A stretch of DNA of 37,535 nt from Bacteroidales bacterium (GTDB taxonomy: Bacteria; Bacteroidota; Bacteroidia; Bacteroidales; F082). Below are positions 10,487 to 18,061 of this stretch, in pieces. Positions within the stretch are counted from its first letter, which is position 1. The number at the start of each line of letters is the position of its first letter. Where the stretch lies: NCBI GenBank assembly GCA_024709145.1, contig JANJXG010000099.1, positions 1 to 37,535 on the forward strand. Direction: 5' to 3'. The notes beneath the pieces are model-generated. The model was not told where the DNA came from and ran no database searches. It worked only from the letters and a program-made list of their open reading frames with translations. Made by a program: the position numbers and the translations under genes.

Positions 10487-11731
10487 ATGAAAAAATGGAA
10501 AGGCCGGGGCAGATTGTGGCTCTTTGTTGTTTTACAAATAATTGTTTTACAAGGATATACCCAAGATATTACCACATTAAAGCAACATTTTAAGCTTTCA
10601 GGTTTTATTAAAAGTAATTATTGGTTTGATACGCGAAAAGTGGATGGTTCACGGGATGATTTGTTTCTCTATTATCCGAAGAAGCCGGTTTACGATGTTC
10701 AGGGCCTTGACATAAATAATGGATTCAATGCCAATTACAGTGCAATTAACACGCGGCTTACGCTCACCATCACAGGGCCTGAGCTATTGAATGCCAAAGT
10801 TACCGGGCTCATCGAAAGTGATTATACTGGTGTCACCAATGCCGACATCGATGGATTGCGGCTCAGACATGCTTACATTTTGATGAAATGGAAAAAAGAT
10901 GAATTGCTCCTGGGGCAAACCTGGCATCCGATGTTTGTTCCGGATGTTTTTCCGGAGGTTCAGGCTTTTAACACGGGGGCGCCCTTTCAACCCTTTATCC
11001 GCAATCCCATGGCAAGTTATAAGCATCATTTTGGCAAGCTTTCATTTCAGCTGGCTTTTATCATGCAACGGGATAACAACAGCGATGGTCCGTCAGGCCG
11101 AAGCCATCTTTATATGCAGGAAGCCGGAATTCCCAATAGTCATATACAGCTTCAATACAGGTTTGGAAATCATGTGATAGGCGGAGCTTTTGATCACAAA
11201 GTACTTCAACCCATGTCAGTTACCGCAAACAGGTTTAAAACAAATGAGCTGCTAAGCTCATTGTCGGGAATGGCTTATTGGAAGTACACCAAATCTAAAC
11301 TCACAGTGCAAATGAAATCTATTTTTGGACAAAACCTCACCGAACACCTGATGTTGGGAGGCTATGCCGTTGCATCGCGCGATTCTGTGTCGCTAATCGA
11401 AACATATACCCCGACAAACCATTTGTTTGTCTGGACAGGCATTCATTATGGCGAAAAATACAGATTTGGATTGTTTGGGGGTTTCGCAAAAAATTTTGGT
11501 ACTACTGACCGAAACATCAATATCTATTACGGTAAAGGGAGCGATATTGACTATATGTACCGTTTGGCACCGGGTTTTTGTTACCGGACAGGCCCGCTGC
11601 GGCTGGCTGCTGAACTCGAATATACTGCTGCAGCTTTTGGTAAAGCTGATGACCATGGGCGCGTAAAAGAAACAAGCCTGACGGGAGTCGCCAGGCTTTT
11701 ACTTGTTGCCGTATATCACTTCAACAATTAA
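10487..11731 (+). CDS. Outer-membrane porin-like beta-barrel protein (DcaP-like)
   Basis: A 414-residue exported protein with an N-terminal signal peptide (basic MKKWKGRGR, a hydrophobic core, cleavage around GYTQD). A short helical segment (ITTLKQHF) precedes a run of alternating beta-strands, ending with an aromatic-rich strand (LLLVAVYHFNN) typical of barrel termini. Motifs such as LSGFIKSNYWFDTRK, NTRLTLTITGPE, GLRLRHAYILMKW and LLLGQTWHPMF recur in Bacteroidota porins related to the DcaP family, trimeric channels that pass small anionic or dicarboxylic compounds in the organisms studied. The substrate here is not readable. It converges on the symporter/CoA-transferase/oxidoreductase operon, leaving only 8 bp between stops, so a shared role in carboxylate uptake is plausible but unproven. 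Confidence 0.7.
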   Translation: MKKWKGRGRLWLFVVLQIIVLQGYTQDITTLKQHFKLSGFIKSNYWFDTRKVDGSRDDLFLYYPKKPVYDVQGLDINNGFNANYSAINTRLTLTITGPELLNAKVTGLIESDYTGVTNADIDGLRLRHAYILMKWKKDELLLGQTWHPMFVPDVFPEVQAFNTGAPFQPFIRNPMASYKHHFGKLSFQLAFIMQRDNNSDGPSGRSHLYMQEAGIPNSHIQLQYRFGNHVIGGAFDHKVLQPMSVTANRFKTNELLSSLSGMAYWKYTKSKLTVQMKSIFGQNLTEHLMLGGYAVASRDSVSLIETYTPTNHLFVWTGIHYGEKYRFGLFGGFAKNFGTTDRNINIYYGKGSDIDYMYRLAPGFCYRTGPLRLAAELEYTAAAFGKADDHGRVKETSLTGVARLLLVAVYHFNN

Positions 11732-11736
11732 ACTTC

Positions 11737-11753
11737 CTGCTAAATGTTAGCAG
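11737..11753. terminator. Small hairpin between converging genes
   Basis: CTGCTAA (11737-11743) and TTAGCAG (11747-11753) form a perfect 7-bp stem with a 3-nt loop. It lies just after the porin stop and overlaps the last codons of the converging KorB-gamma gene. There is no strong T-tract on either side, so a bidirectional terminator is only a possibility. Confidence 0.35.
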
Positions 11754-13014
11754 TAAAAGTTTCAACAGGCACTTTTGCTGAAAGCTTATTCCGGCTGTAG
11801 GCCGTCAGGAGTGATTCTTCCGATAAAATTTGATAATCTTTAATCAGCTTAAAAACGCTGATCATGGCAGCATTGCGTGAGCCTGCCTTGCCCCGCATAT
11901 CAGTGGCAACCACGCTCGAAGTTGTTTGCGGTGCCGGGAGTGAGGCATCGAGCAAAATTACTGCTTTGTCGCTGTTTTTGATCTTTGGCATGGAATAATC
12001 AAGCCCATCCTGAGAGGTGATCAGCATGAAATCGGGTTTTGTTGAACCGGTATAGAAGATCGGCTTATCGGAAATGATCACTTCAGCAGCAGAAAATCCG
12101 ACACCAACTGTAACCGGGTAATGGCCTTTTTTTGTAGCATAAAGTCCTGAAAGCATGGCTGTTTTGGCCAGAAACTCAGCTGCACTCTGGGTGCCCTCGC
12201 CAGCCGATCCGGCCAGCAAAATACGCACTGTTCCTGACCTGACAGCCTGAAACTCCTGCTTTACCAATAACTTTTCAGTAATCAGGCTCTGGATAAATCC
12301 GGTGTAAGATTCTTTTTCGATTGCCTGTCTTGGGGTGGTATTTTTATGCAGCTGAAGGCCTGAAGTCTCAATCACTTGCTTGAGTTTCATCCCCGGGTTG
12401 GATTTTACACCATAGCTTGGGCATATTTCCATGACCTCTACGAGCGAAAAACCAGGGTGGGCAAAAGCTTCTGCCAATTCATCAGAGAAATCCCCAATGC
12501 CCGAAATTCGGCTTACATAGGAAGCTCCCACCCCTTCCATCAGGTGAACCATGTCGATGGCTCCTACTGCTGAACGGTTTGGTGCTGTGGGTGTATTGAA
12601 TCCACAGGGTGTAAACTCACTTGGCTGACCACCTGTCATACCATAAAGCATGTTGTTGTGAATAACCACTGTCATCGGAAAATTGTGATGGGCAGCCACG
12701 AGCAGGTGTTGCATTCCAATGGTGGCACCACCATCGCCGATAAACACAACGACTTTTTTGTTGCTGTTGTGCGGCAAACCCGCAGCAATACCTCCCGCAA
12801 GTGCAACCGAACGGCCGTGAAGGCCATGCACGGTGTGCGAACGCAACGATTTATCGATGATACCATGACATCCGATGTCGGTTACAAAAATTACATCGAG
12901 TGGATGGTAACCCAATTTTTGTAGGGCTTTTTCGGTGTTTTGGGCAACGCCGGCATGGCCACAGCCTTTGCAGAAAGGCAAATCTTTGCTATCAATCAAA
13001 AAACGATTATCCAT
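11740..13014 (-). CDS. 2-oxoacid:ferredoxin oxidoreductase, beta subunit fused to gamma domain
   Basis: The 424-residue protein joins two normally separate parts. Residues 1-215 are a KorB-like thiamine-diphosphate domain: CKGCGH (Cys15, Cys18), DIGC (Cys49) and EICPSYG (Cys198) supply the four expected 4Fe-4S ligands, and GDGGATIGMQH (93-103) to HNN (119-121) is the ThDP/Mg motif. Residues 262-424 are a gamma domain (VRILLAGSAGEGTQSAAEFLAK, then VTVGVGFSAAEVIIS), which closes the CoA-binding part of the enzyme. With the KorA-like subunit upstream it should decarboxylate a 2-oxoacid oxidatively to acyl-CoA and reduce ferredoxin, or run in reverse. No ferredoxin-type delta domain is present. 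The start overlaps the KorA stop by 8 bp. The substrate is unknown. Confidence 0.85.
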   Translation of the reverse strand: MDNRFLIDSKDLPFCKGCGHAGVAQNTEKALQKLGYHPLDVIFVTDIGCHGIIDKSLRSHTVHGLHGRSVALAGGIAAGLPHNSNKKVVVFIGDGGATIGMQHLLVAAHHNFPMTVVIHNNMLYGMTGGQPSEFTPCGFNTPTAPNRSAVGAIDMVHLMEGVGASYVSRISGIGDFSDELAEAFAHPGFSLVEVMEICPSYGVKSNPGMKLKQVIETSGLQLHKNTTPRQAIEKESYTGFIQSLITEKLLVKQEFQAVRSGTVRILLAGSAGEGTQSAAEFLAKTAMLSGLYATKKGHYPVTVGVGFSAAEVIISDKPIFYTGSTKPDFMLITSQDGLDYSMPKIKNSDKAVILLDASLPAPQTTSSVVATDMRGKAGSRNAAMISVFKLIKDYQILSEESLLTAYSRNKLSAKVPVETFTANI

Positions 13015-14134
13015 TTTTTCTAACCTCCTTCATGATTTCTTCTGGTTGAATCATTCTGCCAATGGCATTAATTCCGACGACATGACCCGCGTGATGGCTG
13101 CCAAAAAGCAGGTGACGGTATTGTCCGTCAAGGTTTTCTTCGGCAATAATGATGTGTTTGTACTTTGACAATATAGTGTGGTACATTGAAGGGATTGGAA
13201 AAATTGTCCTGGCAATCAGCAAGGATACTTTTTGGTTCTCTTCCCTGAGCCGCTGAACTGCTTCGCGGCTGGCCTGAGCTGTTACGTCAAAACTAAAGAT
13301 GATCGCATCAGACCCTTCCTGTGGATCATACTCGTATTCGAGAAAATCATTCGCATGCAAATCCAACTTGGCTTTCAGTCTGCGGGTGTTATCAAGTGCC
13401 TCAGGTGTTGTGTTTTGAAGAATCCCTTCTTTGTTGTGTGTACTTGCCGTAAACCTGACCTGATGTTCACTTTGGGTAACAGGTAAAAAACCAGGAACAA
13501 GGTCCCCTCCGGCACCATAGGACTGATAAGGCATTTCGTTATTAAATAACTTCCAGGCTTGTTTTGAAACCGGCTTCAACTTTTCAAGGTCGAAACTCAT
13601 TTGAGTCATTACCATTTCCTTGGAAGTAAGCAATACCACGGGTGTACGGAGTTTCAAAGCTGTTTCAACGGCTTTTACACTCATATCCCAGCAATCCTGC
13701 AAATTGGAAATGCAAAAAGTTGGTAACTGGAATCCGCCGGAAACCGTACCATACACAACATTCAGATCGCCCTGTGCGCCGTTTGTTGCAGTTCCGGTTG
13801 CTGGTCCGAGACGTTGAACAAGGATGATAACCATAGGCAGTTCCATCATCATGGCCATGTTGATGGATTCGATCATCAAGGCATAACCGGGAAATGAAGT
13901 TGCCGTAACCGGAAGTTTTCCCAGACTTGCGTAACCTGTCATCCACTGCAGGGTAGTGATTTCGTCGGGTGCAGCCATCATGGCCGGATAACGTTGATTG
14001 GCATAAGAATAGAGCAGGTTGGCAGGGGTAATGGGATAACCCACGAAAACTTCGGCACCGGCTTGCACACAGGCTTCTGTAATCAGGCGCGACCCATCAA
14101 TAAAAGCCATCTGCTTATGGGTTGTTTCTGTCAT
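13007..14134 (-). CDS. 2-oxoacid:ferredoxin oxidoreductase, alpha subunit (KorA-like)
   Basis: A 375-residue alpha subunit holding the pyrimidine-binding domain of the ThDP site (FIDGSRLITEACVQAGAEVFVGYPITPAN, with the YPITP motif that faces ThDP and substrate), a domain with VILVQRLGPATGTATNGAQGD, and a C-terminal transketolase-type domain (about 270-375). It lacks the N-terminal gamma domain seen in many bacterial KorA proteins; here that domain is fused to the beta subunit instead. Residues that distinguish pyruvate, 2-oxoglutarate, branched-chain and aryl 2-oxoacid enzymes cannot be judged by eye, so I give no specific symbol. The gene overlaps the CoA-transferase by 20 bp and the beta-gamma gene by 8 bp, as expected for subunits made in equal amounts. 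Confidence 0.85.
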   Translation of the reverse strand: MTETTHKQMAFIDGSRLITEACVQAGAEVFVGYPITPANLLYSYANQRYPAMMAAPDEITTLQWMTGYASLGKLPVTATSFPGYALMIESINMAMMMELPMVIILVQRLGPATGTATNGAQGDLNVVYGTVSGGFQLPTFCISNLQDCWDMSVKAVETALKLRTPVVLLTSKEMVMTQMSFDLEKLKPVSKQAWKLFNNEMPYQSYGAGGDLVPGFLPVTQSEHQVRFTASTHNKEGILQNTTPEALDNTRRLKAKLDLHANDFLEYEYDPQEGSDAIIFSFDVTAQASREAVQRLREENQKVSLLIARTIFPIPSMYHTILSKYKHIIIAEENLDGQYRHLLFGSHHAGHVVGINAIGRMIQPEEIMKEVRKNG

Positions 14135-15335
14135 AGATCACATTTTTTTCGATAAGTGACTGAATTTCTTTTTCTGATAATCCGAGTACTTCCGCAAGAA
14201 AACCTGCGGTGTGCTGGCCGTAATGCGGAGGTATTTCGGGAACGTTTGCAAAGGTATGACCTTTCATGGAGAACGCAATAGCGCTCACACCTTTTAATTG
14301 GTTGCCTTCATCGGTTGTTTTGGAATGGATAAGTGGCTGTGCTTCGGGTTGCTCGAAAACCTCTTTCATATTAAACACCCCACCGGCAGGAATTTTGTAT
14401 TTCTCCAGCTTTTCAAGTAAGGTATCTCTTTCCTGCATTTTTATCAGGTTTTTAAGCGTTGACTGCAAACTTTCCCTGTTTTGAACACGGCTGAGATTGT
14501 TGATATATCGGTCATCGGTTGCAAGGTGTTCTGCTTCCAGTACTTTACATAAATCCCTGAATTGGGAATCGGTGCCAATGGCCAGCACAAGGTGTTTCTT
14601 ATCAAGGGTATCATACACAGTGCCATAAGGAACAATGTTCGGGTGGTCGGAGCCCATTGCCTGCGGGATGCAGTTTCCGACAAGCCAGTTTGTTGCCTGG
14701 TTTGCCAGTGAGGTGACGCCGCTTCTGAAAAGAGACACATCGGTGAAGGTCCCTAAACCTGTTCGTTCGCGTTGGTAAAGTGCCAGCAGGATAGCTTCTT
14801 TCAGGTGATGCCCGGCCAGGATATCCATTAGTGCAACAGGCATTTTCACCGGTCTGCAACCGGCTTCCCCATTGATAAAGGTAAATCCGGTTTCCGCCTG
14901 AATGATAGCATCATAACCTGCACGTTTGTTTTCGAGACCATAACCGGTAAGATGGGCATAAATCAAGCGGGGGTTTAATGGCTGGAGGTTGGCATAATCG
15001 ACTTTAAGTTTTTCGGCATCACCTGGTTTGTAACTTGCCAAAACAATGTCGAAGTATTTTATTGATGCATGAATAAGATTGAGCCCTTCGGGGTGAATCA
15101 AATCGAGGGCAACGGATTTTTTGCCCCAGTTCACGCAGCTGAAATAAGCTGAGATGTCGGTTGAAGGATCTTCGCTTGGTAATTTCCACGTTCGGGTTAC
15201 ATCACCACTGGTCAGCAAATTTTCAATTTTGATAACTTCAGCGCCCAGCTCTGCAAGCATGGCGCCTACGCCCGGACCAGCCAAAACATTGGCTAGTTCC
15301 AATACCCTGATCCCGGATAAGATTCCTTTACTCAT
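14115..15335 (-). CDS. Class III CoA-transferase (CaiB/BaiF family)
   Basis: The 406-residue protein matches class III CoA-transferases such as formyl-CoA:oxalate, carnitine and 2-hydroxyacyl CoA-transferases, which form interlocked dimers and move CoA between two carboxylic acids. Visible family features are GIRVLELANVLAGPGVGAMLAELGAEVIKIE at the N-terminus, WGKKSVALDL, GYGLENKRAGYDAIIQAETG and MPVALMDILAG, where Asp171 fits the catalytic aspartate that forms the acyl-anhydride and CoA-thioester intermediates. Substrate specificity is unresolved. It sits between the symporter (8-bp overlap) and KorA (20-bp overlap). I infer that it either activates the imported acid or takes CoA from the acyl-CoA made by the oxidoreductase, saving ATP. 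Confidence 0.88.
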   Translation of the reverse strand: MSKGILSGIRVLELANVLAGPGVGAMLAELGAEVIKIENLLTSGDVTRTWKLPSEDPSTDISAYFSCVNWGKKSVALDLIHPEGLNLIHASIKYFDIVLASYKPGDAEKLKVDYANLQPLNPRLIYAHLTGYGLENKRAGYDAIIQAETGFTFINGEAGCRPVKMPVALMDILAGHHLKEAILLALYQRERTGLGTFTDVSLFRSGVTSLANQATNWLVGNCIPQAMGSDHPNIVPYGTVYDTLDKKHLVLAIGTDSQFRDLCKVLEAEHLATDDRYINNLSRVQNRESLQSTLKNLIKMQERDTLLEKLEKYKIPAGGVFNMKEVFEQPEAQPLIHSKTTDEGNQLKGVSAIAFSMKGHTFANVPEIPPHYGQHTAGFLAEVLGLSEKEIQSLIEKNVIYDRNNP

Positions 15336-16770
15336 TCCTGATAGCTTTTTTTCGTCTGAAGTTCTCGATCAGGTTGCCAATGATGATGAAAACAATGGCA
15401 AAAACAACCGCGCCATAAGTTTTGTCGATGTTGAACCACTTCATCTTTGCAGCGAGCATAAAAATGAAAATCGCGCTCGTGCCGCCGATGAAAGCCAGTT
15501 TAACGGCATAAGGACTGATCCAGTTTCGTTTGTAGATCCCCAACAGGATCACAATGGCACCAATAGCGCGGATAGCATAGCTTACATAAGCTGCGTCGAG
15601 GATGCCTTTTTGAAAGAAAATCGCCAATGGAAGGGTGATGATTGTCACAAGAATAACAAGTTTTTTGGCTACTCCAATCACTTGTTGTTCGTTGGCCTTC
15701 GGGTTGATAAAACCGTGATAGATATCTTTTGTGGCAATGGTAACAACGGCAAAATTCACCGGACCAACGGTTGAAAGTATCGCTGCCAAAATGCCGGATA
15801 GCGCGAGTCCTCCGAAAACGGGATGGATAAATTCGGGATTTGTGAGCAGGCTGGTTAACACCATTTTTGGATTAACAGTTTCCACATCAAGGAAATAGCC
15901 GGTTGCGCCTATCAAACCAAGCAGGGCAGTCATCACACCAAAAGGAGCAATCAATGCGCTGGAAAGAATGCTGGCTTTTTTGGCAGTGGCTGCATCCCTG
16001 GCAGCAAAGATAGGCTGGATACTGGCCTGAGCTGCCATGCCCCCCAGCACACCTCCCAGTAAGAGGCTGAAAGCCCCTGAGAGTCCGGCGCTGAAAGGAT
16101 TGTAAATATTACCGGGAGCTCCCTTGGCGGCAAGAATGTGTTGAAGTTCGGCAAAACCGCCAATTTTAATCATGCCAATGATCGTTGCAAGACCAACACC
16201 CAAAAACATCATGAGCGTATGAGCCACCGAGGTGATGGCCAGTGCATGCATCCCGCCAACATAAGTGTAAACGGTGATCACAATGGCTGAAATAACGATG
16301 GCACTCAGCCAGCTGATTTGAAAGATCGCACTTAACACACTGGCGGCTGTTTGCATCTGAACATAAGCCAAGGTGATGTAGGCAACAAGAAAGGCGATGG
16401 CAGAAATCTTTTTAGCATCACGGCCAAACAAAAAATCCAGCATTTCACTCACCGTATGGACGTTTTGCTCGCGATACCATTTGGCAACTGTAAACCCTAT
16501 AATGACCATGCCTATCGCAGTAGAAACATTGTAAAGAATTGGCTGAAAGGAGAGTGTATTGAAAGCTTTCTCGCTTACACCTATCGTACTCATTCCGCCC
16601 AGCCATTCCGCCGCCACCACAACAGCACAAAACGTCATGCCAAGGTTCCGGCCCGCCACAAGGTAATCAGCTACGCTTCGGCTGGCGATTTTGCGGGTCA
16701 GCAGCGATAATAATATGATGCCGGCAAAATAGGCTACCACAATCAAAAAGTAGGTGTTTGTAAAGATCAT
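15328..16770 (-). CDS. Sodium:solute symporter (SSS family)
   Basis: A 480-residue polytopic inner-membrane protein with about 13 hydrophobic helices and the family's typical opening (YFLIVVAYFAGIILLSLLTRK, then SVADYLVAGRNLG). AEWLGGMSTIGVSEKAF corresponds to the TM2 Na+/substrate region, and the conserved middle segment LSGILAAILSTVGPVNFAVVTIATKDIY matches the TM8 region that carries Na+ ligands in SSS transporters. Members take up sugars, amino acids, pantothenate or mono- and dicarboxylates with Na+. Cotranscription with a CoA-transferase and a 2-oxoacid oxidoreductase favours a carboxylate, but that is inference. The ATG at 16770 is preferred over an upstream in-frame start because it leads straight into TM1. 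It is the first gene of the operon, downstream of a -7 box at 16813-16820. Confidence 0.88.
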   Translation of the reverse strand: MIFTNTYFLIVVAYFAGIILLSLLTRKIASRSVADYLVAGRNLGMTFCAVVVAAEWLGGMSTIGVSEKAFNTLSFQPILYNVSTAIGMVIIGFTVAKWYREQNVHTVSEMLDFLFGRDAKKISAIAFLVAYITLAYVQMQTAASVLSAIFQISWLSAIVISAIVITVYTYVGGMHALAITSVAHTLMMFLGVGLATIIGMIKIGGFAELQHILAAKGAPGNIYNPFSAGLSGAFSLLLGGVLGGMAAQASIQPIFAARDAATAKKASILSSALIAPFGVMTALLGLIGATGYFLDVETVNPKMVLTSLLTNPEFIHPVFGGLALSGILAAILSTVGPVNFAVVTIATKDIYHGFINPKANEQQVIGVAKKLVILVTIITLPLAIFFQKGILDAAYVSYAIRAIGAIVILLGIYKRNWISPYAVKLAFIGGTSAIFIFMLAAKMKWFNIDKTYGAVVFAIVFIIIGNLIENFRRKKAIRNE

Positions 16771-17092: not shown

Positions 17093-18061
17093 ATGACAAC
17101 AGTTTTAACCCCTCGTCAGAAAAAGATTATCAAGGCATCCAACATCAGCTTGTTGGGCAATGCAAGCCTTGCGGTAATCAAAATCATCGCAGGCTATCTG
17201 TCAGGAAGTCTGGCTGTTGTTGCAGACGGGATTGATTCACTGAGTGATGTATTCACTTCATTCATCACACTTTTCACTGCAAAAATTATTACGCGTCCGC
17301 CAAACCGTCGCCACCCATACGGTTACGACAAAGCTGATACAGTTGCTTCAAAACTGGTTGCTTTTGTCATTTTCTTTGCCGGGGCACAGCTGGCCATTTC
17401 CACGGTGCACAACCTGATGGAGGAAACAGTGCGTGAAATTCCATCGCCTTATGCCATCATCGTAATCCTTGTTTCAATTGTTGGTAAGCAATTGCTGGCT
17501 GGTTATTTGCGCAAAACAGGCAACCAAATCGACAGCCCTATGCTTCGTGCCAATGCCCGGAACATGCAAAACGACGTCATCATTTCAGTTTCGGTGCTGA
17601 CGGGTCTCGTGATGACCCACATGCTCAAAATGCCTGTGCTAGATACGATTACTGCCTTGGCTGTGAGTGTCTGGATAATGTTTATCGCCATCAGAATGAT
17701 CATCACCACAAGCCGGGAATTAATGGATGGCGTTGAAGATCAGACGATTTATTCCACGATCATTCAAGCTGCCGGCTCGGTTGAAAAAGCCAGAAACCCA
17801 CACAGGATCAGAGCCAGAAAAATGGCTCATTATTATATGATCGCTCTGGATGTAGAAGTGGATGGTAACCTAAGTTTGTTTGAAGCCCATACAGTTGGTC
17901 ATCAGGTGGAAGACATGATTCGAAAAGCGATTCCCAGCACCTATGATGTGGTAGTGCATATGGAGCCATTTGGTGTGCAGCATCCCGCCGAGGCATTTGG
18001 TATCTCAGAGAAAAACCTCCATACTGATGAGTCCCGGCCATTGAATTCAGCTGACAAATAA
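17093..18061 (+). CDS. Cation diffusion facilitator metal exporter
   Basis: The 322-residue product is a CDF antiporter that exports a divalent metal for protons across the inner membrane: six helices (about 18-225) and a cytosolic ferredoxin-like C-terminal domain (about 226-300, YYMIALDVEVDGNLSLFEAHTVGHQVEDMIRKAIP). Aligned by eye to FieF/YiiP, the intramembrane site A is Asp48, Asp52 (GIDSLSDV) and Asn157, Asp161 (ARNMQNDV). The usual TM5 His is therefore Asn, and the cytosolic-loop His is Tyr78 (HPYGYDKAD). This DD-ND site suggests a preference other than Zn, for example Mn or Fe, as inference. No metal regulator is adjacent. The next gene starts 54 bp downstream behind its own promoter. 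Confidence 0.92.
   Translation: MTTVLTPRQKKIIKASNISLLGNASLAVIKIIAGYLSGSLAVVADGIDSLSDVFTSFITLFTAKIITRPPNRRHPYGYDKADTVASKLVAFVIFFAGAQLAISTVHNLMEETVREIPSPYAIIVILVSIVGKQLLAGYLRKTGNQIDSPMLRANARNMQNDVIISVSVLTGLVMTHMLKMPVLDTITALAVSVWIMFIAIRMIITTSRELMDGVEDQTIYSTIIQAAGSVEKARNPHRIRARKMAHYYMIALDVEVDGNLSLFEAHTVGHQVEDMIRKAIPSTYDVVVHMEPFGVQHPAEAFGISEKNLHTDESRPLNSADK

Follow-up and report, generated by a model that had tools for sequence, protein, structure and literature searches.

In mammals, lysine is degraded to glutaryl-coenzyme A (glutaryl-CoA) by the saccharopine route, through AASS, the DHTKD1 complex, glutaryl-CoA dehydrogenase (GCDH) and the CoA-transferase SUGCT. A set of genes that probably converges on the same thioester was analyzed in a contig of an uncultured Bacteroidales bacterium (JANJXG010000099.1, 37,535 nucleotides, hereafter the window), which is part of a 3.8-Mb assembly (GCA_024709145.1; genome G000) whose relatives are Bacteroidales. 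Here, a Na+/solute symporter (SSS), a class III CoA-transferase and the alpha subunit (KorA) and beta-gamma fusion subunit (KorB-gamma) of a 2-oxoacid:ferredoxin oxidoreductase (OFOR) are encoded by four overlapping genes. The reading that we favor, with a confidence a little above even, is that a 2-oxoadipate:ferredoxin oxidoreductase and a SUGCT-like transferase share glutaryl-CoA as their common thioester during the breakdown of lysine, and that the symporter transports glutarate. The operon is real and conserved, and its predicted function is likely to be a variant of known lysine/glutarate catabolism.

The proposed route shares with the mammalian one saccharopine-type genes, a GCDH and a SUGCT-like CoA-transferase around glutaryl-CoA, but the 2-oxoadipate step would be carried out by a ferredoxin-dependent OFOR rather than by a lipoamide dehydrogenase complex, and the transferase, the OFOR and a Na+ symporter are united in one operon. 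Like SUGCT (structures 9br6 and 9br7, succinate-hydroxymethylglutarate CoA-transferase, which we take to be the human enzyme), the CoA-transferase belongs to the class III family, has the catalytic Asp and aligns with 9br7 over residues 6-400 (202 bits); unlike SUGCT, it lies under the curated cut-off of the succinate-glutarate family (278 vs 750 bits), and two other solved structures, 10uh (258 bits, named formyl-CoA transferase) and 4ed9 (227 bits, named CaiB/BaiF), score higher. The OFOR resembles StOFOR (5b46-48), MmOGOR (6n2n) and H. pylori Oor (8ys5) in its thiamine pyrophosphate (TPP)-binding beta core with four aligned cysteines, in the YPITP and Arg of its alpha subunit and in its gamma domain. 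It differs from them in that gamma is fused behind beta, not placed before alpha or free, in that Ile replaces Lys49/Arg and Gly replaces Lys125, and in forming a clade of its own.

Another OFOR tied to enzymes that use acyl-CoA and make a free acid is found in tyrosine fermentation, where, in the part of the source consulted, HpdDEFG is combined with the acyltransferase HpdJ and the kinase HpdK (PMC13285125); CoA transfer takes the place of phosphotransfer and a kinase in the present locus, which also includes a transporter. Among the literature titles listed in a limited search, none dealt with this operon; one docking paper joins 2-oxoadipate, ferredoxin oxidoreductase and glutaryl-CoA.

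Conservation of the four-gene operon

An earlier note on this DNA, made without database searches, had described four genes on one strand that overlap by 8, 20 and 8 bp, in the order symporter, CoA-transferase, KorA and KorB-gamma, with a porin gene converging on them 8 bp away. The open reading frame (ORF) coordinates agree with this description (all four genes lie on the minus strand, and the convergent porin-like ORF ends 8 bp from the KorB-gamma stop), and the gene names agree with the domain searches, in which the Pfam domains follow one another as SSF, CoA_transf_3, POR_N and TPP_enzyme_C with POR. In an alignment of 22 homologues, the catalytic Asp171 that the note had named for the CoA-transferase does not vary.

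The clustering of these genes is more than chance, because their order recurs in distant genomes and the CoA-transferase and the OFOR occur together far more often than expected. For the CoA-transferase, 80 loci were returned; without L082, which has no transferase ORF, 79 remain, namely a close block of 28 (L043-L069 and L092, delimited after the neighbors had been seen) and 51 distant loci. In the close block, which comprises 25 Bacteroidales/Bacteroidetes records and one each labeled Brocadiia, Cloacimonadota and Fermentibacteria, the symporter lies directly upstream of the CoA-transferase in 26/26 readable loci and KorA directly downstream in 20/23, no KorA being seen in L047, L054 and L069. 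The corresponding counts for the distant loci, largely from Cytophagales, are 0/49 and 0/51. One carrier of the cassette is a named strain, Perlabentimonas gracilis (L046).

Among 344 Bacteroidales genomes, the KorB-gamma fusion occurs in 27, a close CoA-transferase in 17 (30 at E<=1e-40, of which 13 weak matches with a best identity of 30-36% were set aside) and both in 14, vs 1.3 expected (p 4e-15). These co-occurrence counts and those given below are uncorrected for phylogeny, except for the genus count for saccharopine dehydrogenase. By coordinates, a distance of about 1.1 kb, which corresponds to one KorA, separates the CoA-transferase from the OFOR in each of the 14 genomes that have both (hereafter cassette genomes). 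For the 23 complete loci, correlations of 0.71-0.92 were obtained among the distance matrices of the four proteins (0/2000 permutations); these correlations fit joint inheritance, and common descent of the hosts alone would also give them. The symporter stays with the CoA-transferase in genomes G133 and G233, which are without this OFOR, and in loci L047 and L054, where no KorA was seen, and it was not seen at loci that have GCDH and the OFOR without the CoA-transferase. The earlier interpretation is partly supported: the data agree with a co-inherited module of transport, ATP-free CoA exchange and ferredoxin chemistry, the gene order being clearly co-conserved in relatives with the exceptions of G001, G002, L047, L054, L069, G133 and G233.

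The contigs labeled with other phyla, namely Brocadiia (L050, which has the complete set of four), Cloacimonadota (L069) and Fermentibacteria (L092, in which the symporter is present and the contig then ends), suggest either transfer of the CoA-transferase between phyla or binning errors. In plasmid records, all transferases are less than 60% identical to the CoA-transferase.

Glutaryl-CoA dehydrogenase and lysine-route genes as substrate clues

The substrate was sought in loci that carry the OFOR without the CoA-transferase (n=16; 13 from the order sample and three from the relatives). An acyl-CoA dehydrogenase, GCDH, adjoins KorA in 10 of the 16, and in an eleventh (L040) it is separated from KorA by one TetR-like gene. 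The ten best solved matches of the L040 dehydrogenase (464-384 bits) are nine structures named glutaryl-CoA dehydrogenase and 4w9u, named acyl-CoA dehydrogenase; the next scores 260 bits, and isovaleryl-CoA dehydrogenases reach at most 217 bits. The motifs RS.ASVQ and TYEGT, which presumably contain, respectively, the Arg that binds glutarate and the Tyr-Glu found in decarboxylating GCDH, are present in 24/24 GCDH copies, and a 380-aa dehydrogenase of L183 lacks RS.ASVQ. For three further loci, GCDH is elsewhere in the genome: L173 breaks off at a contig end and GCDH opens a different contig of that genome, and in the genomes of L172 and L178 it lies apart from the OFOR. The GCDH of the window's own genome is on contig C94 and is 83% identical to that of L040, and in G173 (L183) a single run contains the 380-aa acyl-CoA dehydrogenase, GCDH, SSS, CoA-transferase, KorA and KorB-gamma. 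In 12 genomes where GCDH lies away from the OFOR, no lysine genes were found among the ten neighbor genes identified.

Among OFOR genomes, GCDH (E<=1e-110) is found in 12/13 without the CoA-transferase vs 4/14 with it (p 0.0013), and the two enzymes behave as if they were alternative outlets of one thioester. In a joint KorA/KorB-gamma tree, the CoA-transferase context changes six times and the GCDH context three times, a count that can be raised because L037, whose transferase is divided between two contigs, and L173, which stops at a contig end, were scored as having none. The earlier note had called the substrate unknown; the relatives instead point to glutaryl-CoA and likely to a known lysine/glutarate route. 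It had also suggested that an incoming acid receives its CoA from acyl-CoA made by the OFOR, which is possible but not the simplest arrangement, because the OFOR and the CoA-transferase seem to share one thioester, probably glutaryl-CoA.

The CoA-transferase matches PF02515 with 310 bits over positions 1-366 of 366. Its best match among seven NCBIfam families is NF052585, succinate-glutarate CoA-transferase (278 bits vs 192 for the oxalate and 177 for the mesaconate family), and on the basis of this similarity it is taken as a SUGCT-like enzyme, with glutaryl-CoA and glutarate as the presumed exchange pair. Grouping with characterized enzymes, which the note had named as a finding that would refute its proposal, is half true of the CoA-transferase, which is SUGCT-like yet below the cut-off, and not true of the OFOR.

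A source of 2-oxoadipate is suggested by the lysine-route genes. A saccharopine-dehydrogenase-like gene (PF16653, E<=1e-55, a threshold chosen after two size classes had appeared) is present in 26 of all 27 OFOR genomes vs 25/53 controls, the first 53 of 90 randomly drawn (p 5.6e-6); the lone OFOR genome without it, G053, is 70% complete. Counted by genus, the figures are 15/16 with the OFOR vs 23/46 (p 0.002). On contig C55 of the own genome, such a gene (Sacchrp_dh_C and NADP domains) is paired with an AlaDh_PNT_N-domain gene that, by its domain, may be read as lysine-ketoglutarate reductase (LKR)-like; we use "like" for both since neither matches an NCBIfam family. Genes for an enoyl-CoA hydratase and a 3-hydroxyacyl-CoA dehydrogenase are located 4-8 kb away from the pair, whose two members are together in 6/8 loci fetched. 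LKR (106/344 genomes at E<=1e-60, of which eight at 35-38% identity were set aside and 98 kept) and GCDH co-occur in 38 of 65 GCDH genomes (p 1.5e-8), the 65 including two partial genes. 2-Oxoadipate is proposed as the substrate of the OFOR because of the proximity of GCDH and the co-occurrence of saccharopine dehydrogenase.

The OFOR itself has the hallmarks of its superfamily, namely a POR_N alpha subunit with YPITP and the carboxylate Arg, a TPP-binding beta part with four Cys and a gamma/POR domain. YPITP and QR[LM]GP[AS]TG occur in 44/44 relatives checked and also align with solved OFORs, the arginine motif being the counterpart of the substrate-carboxylate-binding motif in StOFOR. Residues C15, C18, C49 and C198 of KorB-gamma align with the cysteines of solved OFOR beta chains and presumably hold the cluster. 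In the predicted model of KorB-gamma (mean predicted local distance difference test score, pLDDT, 84), the front part matches KorB chains and the rear part OFOR gamma subunits. The beta-subunit tree places the fusions apart from those proteins of related genomes that are KGOR-like, VOR-like or IOR-like (these labels, like PFOR, are our own, given by motif and size, and the tree contains no PFOR); the fusion clade has 28 rows with support 91/94, under the starred level, and the VOR-like and IOR-like proteins form separate clades. The motif GCHGI[IV]D is found in 43/44 fusions (GCCGLVD in the remaining one) and MTGGQ in 44/44, the canonical KGOR-like proteins having GCSSRFP and LTKGQ.

At the place of StOFOR1 Lys49, the fusions have Ile (43/44) or Leu (1/44), and at that of StOFOR Lys125 they have Gly. 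In the excerpts consulted, replacement K49I abolished the 2-oxoglutarate activity of StOFOR1 and kept its pyruvate activity, Lys125 was linked to CoA binding (PMC5020499), and DaPFOR, which takes pyruvate, has Ile at the Lys49 place. Because Ile occupies this place and K49I has that effect in StOFOR1, the OFOR is unlikely, as far as its sequence indicates, to be a 2-oxoglutarate enzyme; besides the missing basic residue, its score for PRK09628 is 113 bits vs a cut-off of 364. The residue at the Lys49 place does not by itself tell which 2-oxoacid is used. Oxidation of oxalate by the OFOR was rejected (oxalate oxidoreductase scores only 22.7 bits). Further OFORs, resembling KGOR, VOR and PFOR, are also encoded in the own genome.

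The one divergent KorA/KorB-gamma pair, with GCCGLVD instead of GCHGIID (L042:1-17245, genome G028), falls outside the fusion clade and possibly uses another substrate. Its neighbors are an ADP-forming acyl-CoA ligase, xanthine-dehydrogenase-type subunits, a short-chain dehydrogenase, a thiolase and an aldehyde ferredoxin oxidoreductase-like gene.

Proposed pathway and competing explanations

In the proposed model, 2-oxoadipate would be supplied from lysine by the saccharopine route and KorA/KorB-gamma would catalyze 2-oxoadipate + CoA + 2 Fd_ox <-> glutaryl-CoA + CO2 + 2 Fd_red (Fd, ferredoxin). The CoA-transferase would catalyze glutarate + succinyl-CoA <-> glutaryl-CoA + succinate, glutarate would be carried by the Na+ symporter, and the convergent porin may serve as the outer-membrane step. 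These reactions are the ones expected of the known enzyme families, while the choice of substrates and the direction are inferred. In the own genome, glutaryl-CoA from both inputs would be converted to crotonyl-CoA by the GCDH at the other locus. In cassette genomes without GCDH, the transferase would instead yield glutarate and a CoA ester (succinyl-CoA) that can make ATP; no GCDH match at E<=1e-110 is present in 10/14 cassette genomes, where the transferase is the only exit identified, other exits not having been searched for. A complete ferredoxin-reducing fermentation of lysine to glutarate, in which CoA is passed to succinate for ATP and glutarate leaves with Na+ through the symporter after the saccharopine route and the OFOR, is a more tentative possibility, which we would not put forward as the probable outcome.

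The symporter is an SSS protein by its SSF domain (PF00474, 114 bits), and it lies under the curated cut-offs of the members with known solutes examined, PutP, ActP, MctP and PanF (best PutP, 94 bits vs 515.5); a dicarboxylate carrier for glutarate is the presumed function. If the proposed model is correct, the operon provides anoxic bacteria with a mammalian-type lysine route that is coupled to ferredoxin, gives a function to an OFOR clade with a beta-gamma fusion that is present in 27/344 sampled Bacteroidales genomes, offers a candidate glutarate symporter and changes the lysine and glutarate entries in models of anaerobic digesters and sediments. According to the portion of the source consulted, no microbial glutarate uptake carrier had been reported before KgtP (PMC12622518).

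Several observations weigh against lysine-derived glutaryl-CoA as the meeting point. The CoA-transferase is under the NF052585 cut-off for membership, and SUGCT ranks only third among solved structures. In the OFOR, no residue was found to hold the far carboxylate of 2-oxoadipate, the Lys49 place being taken by Ile. The dehydrogenases of L040 (267 bits) and L041 (258 bits) lie under the cut-off of 470 for NF045552 (Acd), level with acryloyl-CoA reductase; the solved structure 3mpi also scores low with the L040 dehydrogenase (242 bits). GCDH is common without the OFOR (49/317 OFOR-less genomes, and 31/37 genomes of the same family) and is thus not diagnostic alone, and the enrichment of LKR in OFOR genomes falls short of significance (12/27 vs 86/317, p 0.07). 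Both GCDH and the saccharopine-dehydrogenase-like gene are found in the same-genus genomes G003, G006 and G007, which contain neither the OFOR nor the CoA-transferase; a SucA-type E1, which could perform the same step, is present in these three and in 8/8 relatives that carry the CoA-transferase. Genomes G133 and G233 have SSS and the CoA-transferase and no OFOR or GCDH match at the cut-offs used, the symporter is not upstream of the CoA-transferase in same-genus G001 and G002, and one OFOR locus (L042) adjoins xanthine-dehydrogenase-type genes, relatives of some of which are held by L167. Replacement of the OFOR by the SucA-type E1 was considered, and this pattern was not found, because E1 is present in 32/37 family members, with and without the OFOR.

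The system could alternatively handle branched-chain or other neutral acids, in which case isobutyrate, isovalerate, propionate or an aromatic acid would enter through the symporter and be converted to its CoA ester by the transferase, and the OFOR would carboxylate this ester to a 2-oxoacid for amino acid synthesis, or act in reverse in fermentation. Ile at the Lys49 place, as in DaPFOR, and MTGGQ, which is common to VOR-like and IOR-like proteins, are in keeping with this. So is the finding that ilvC is not over its cut-off in 7/8 genomes of the relatives set with the CoA-transferase (G000 and seven relatives), which suggests reliance on outside branched-chain amino acids or acids, as is a class IV aminotransferase with an amidase (over the cut-off of NF007757) that in L043 (4737-6343) immediately precede the symporter and which we take to be a possible glutamine-transaminase and omega-amidase pair. 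However, ilvC is over its cut-off in only 17/61 relatives, so that its absence is also common in genomes lacking the cassette, 5/8 genomes with the CoA-transferase do have prephenate dehydratase, and scavenging of phenylalanine or branched-chain acids was rejected because neither gene tracks the cassette. The dehydrogenase beside the OFOR matches GCDH and not isovaleryl-CoA dehydrogenase, the curated family closest to the transferase is that of a dicarboxylate enzyme, and the own genome has a separate VOR-like gene set (L123). A pocket for neutral 2-oxoacids only was weakened by the discovery of GCDH and is kept as part of this explanation, which we regard as unlikely.

Unlikely to much the same degree is another di- or tricarboxylate route, in which itaconate, mesaconate, citramalate or oxalate would be the substrate of the transferase and a different 2-oxoacid that of the OFOR. 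Enzymes for oxalate and mesaconate are among the class III relatives, the nearest solved structure, 10uh, is named formyl-CoA transferase, and in G063 (L070:7899-13282 and L179) a related CoA-transferase (54%) is followed on one strand by the porin orthologue, a CitD-CitE fusion and CitF, which together are citrate-lyase-like. On the other hand, the gap in curated scores favors the glutarate family, the proximity of GCDH indicates glutaryl-CoA, and G063 itself also has GCDH and an LKR-like gene. In a third alternative, imported glutarate would be activated and carboxylated to 2-oxoadipate and then feed 2-aminoadipate and perhaps lysine synthesis; OFORs and the enzymes of the saccharopine route can in principle run in both directions. 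The gene order parallels uptake, activation and carboxylation, and 13/14 cassette genomes have the saccharopine-dehydrogenase-like gene even though most have no GCDH match. At the linked loci, however, a decarboxylating GCDH would pull glutaryl-CoA forward, so that the OFOR is expected to supply glutaryl-CoA there, and in G026, where DapB adjoins the OFOR, an enzyme of the diaminopimelate route to lysine is present. Such reverse use seems quite improbable.

Gene models, the porin and neighboring genes

The gene models of the operon and of the convergent porin-like ORF are given in Table 1. For SSS, an upstream TTG is an alternative start that gives a protein of 495 aa.

Table 1. Predicted genes of the operon and the convergent ORF, with positions in the window.
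Feature	Position	Strand	Remarks
Na+/solute symporter (SSS, PF00474)	15328..16770	minus	480 aa from ATG at 16770
Class III (CaiB/BaiF) CoA-transferase, SUGCT-like, catalytic Asp171	14115..15335	minus	406 aa; PF02515
KorA-like alpha subunit of 2-oxoacid:ferredoxin oxidoreductase	13007..14134	minus	375 aa; PF01855; YPITP and QRLGPATG
KorB-gamma fusion	11740..13014	minus	424 aa; TPP beta ~1-210, linker, gamma/POR ~260-424; GCHGI[IV]D and MTGGQ
Outer-membrane porin-like ORF	10487..11731	plus	414 aa; convergent; possibly a DcaP-like dicarboxylate porin (weakly indicated)

The porin-like ORF has no Pfam match. In a comparison of its predicted model, DcaP ranks first, but many porins score alike, and the model, with a low-confidence pLDDT of 54, was set aside as too poor to serve as support. 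An orthologue lies beside the operon in two (G004 and G001, not G005 and G002) of the four same-genus genomes with a readable flank, and another is in one row with the CoA-transferase in G063. The porin proposed in the earlier note as the outer-membrane step thus has some link to the operon, and its DcaP-like nature is only weakly suggested.

In a Bacteroidota metagenome-assembled genome (L121:7914-13375), a distant transferase (48%) is encoded near a KGOR-like alpha subunit (631 aa) and beta subunit (318 aa). On the symporter side of the operon, the window contains a cation diffusion facilitator gene (17093-18061), which adjoins the symporter or the CoA-transferase in all five loci of the genus whose flank could be read (L032, L033, L034, L038 and L039); in L038, one small ORF lies between this gene and the operon.

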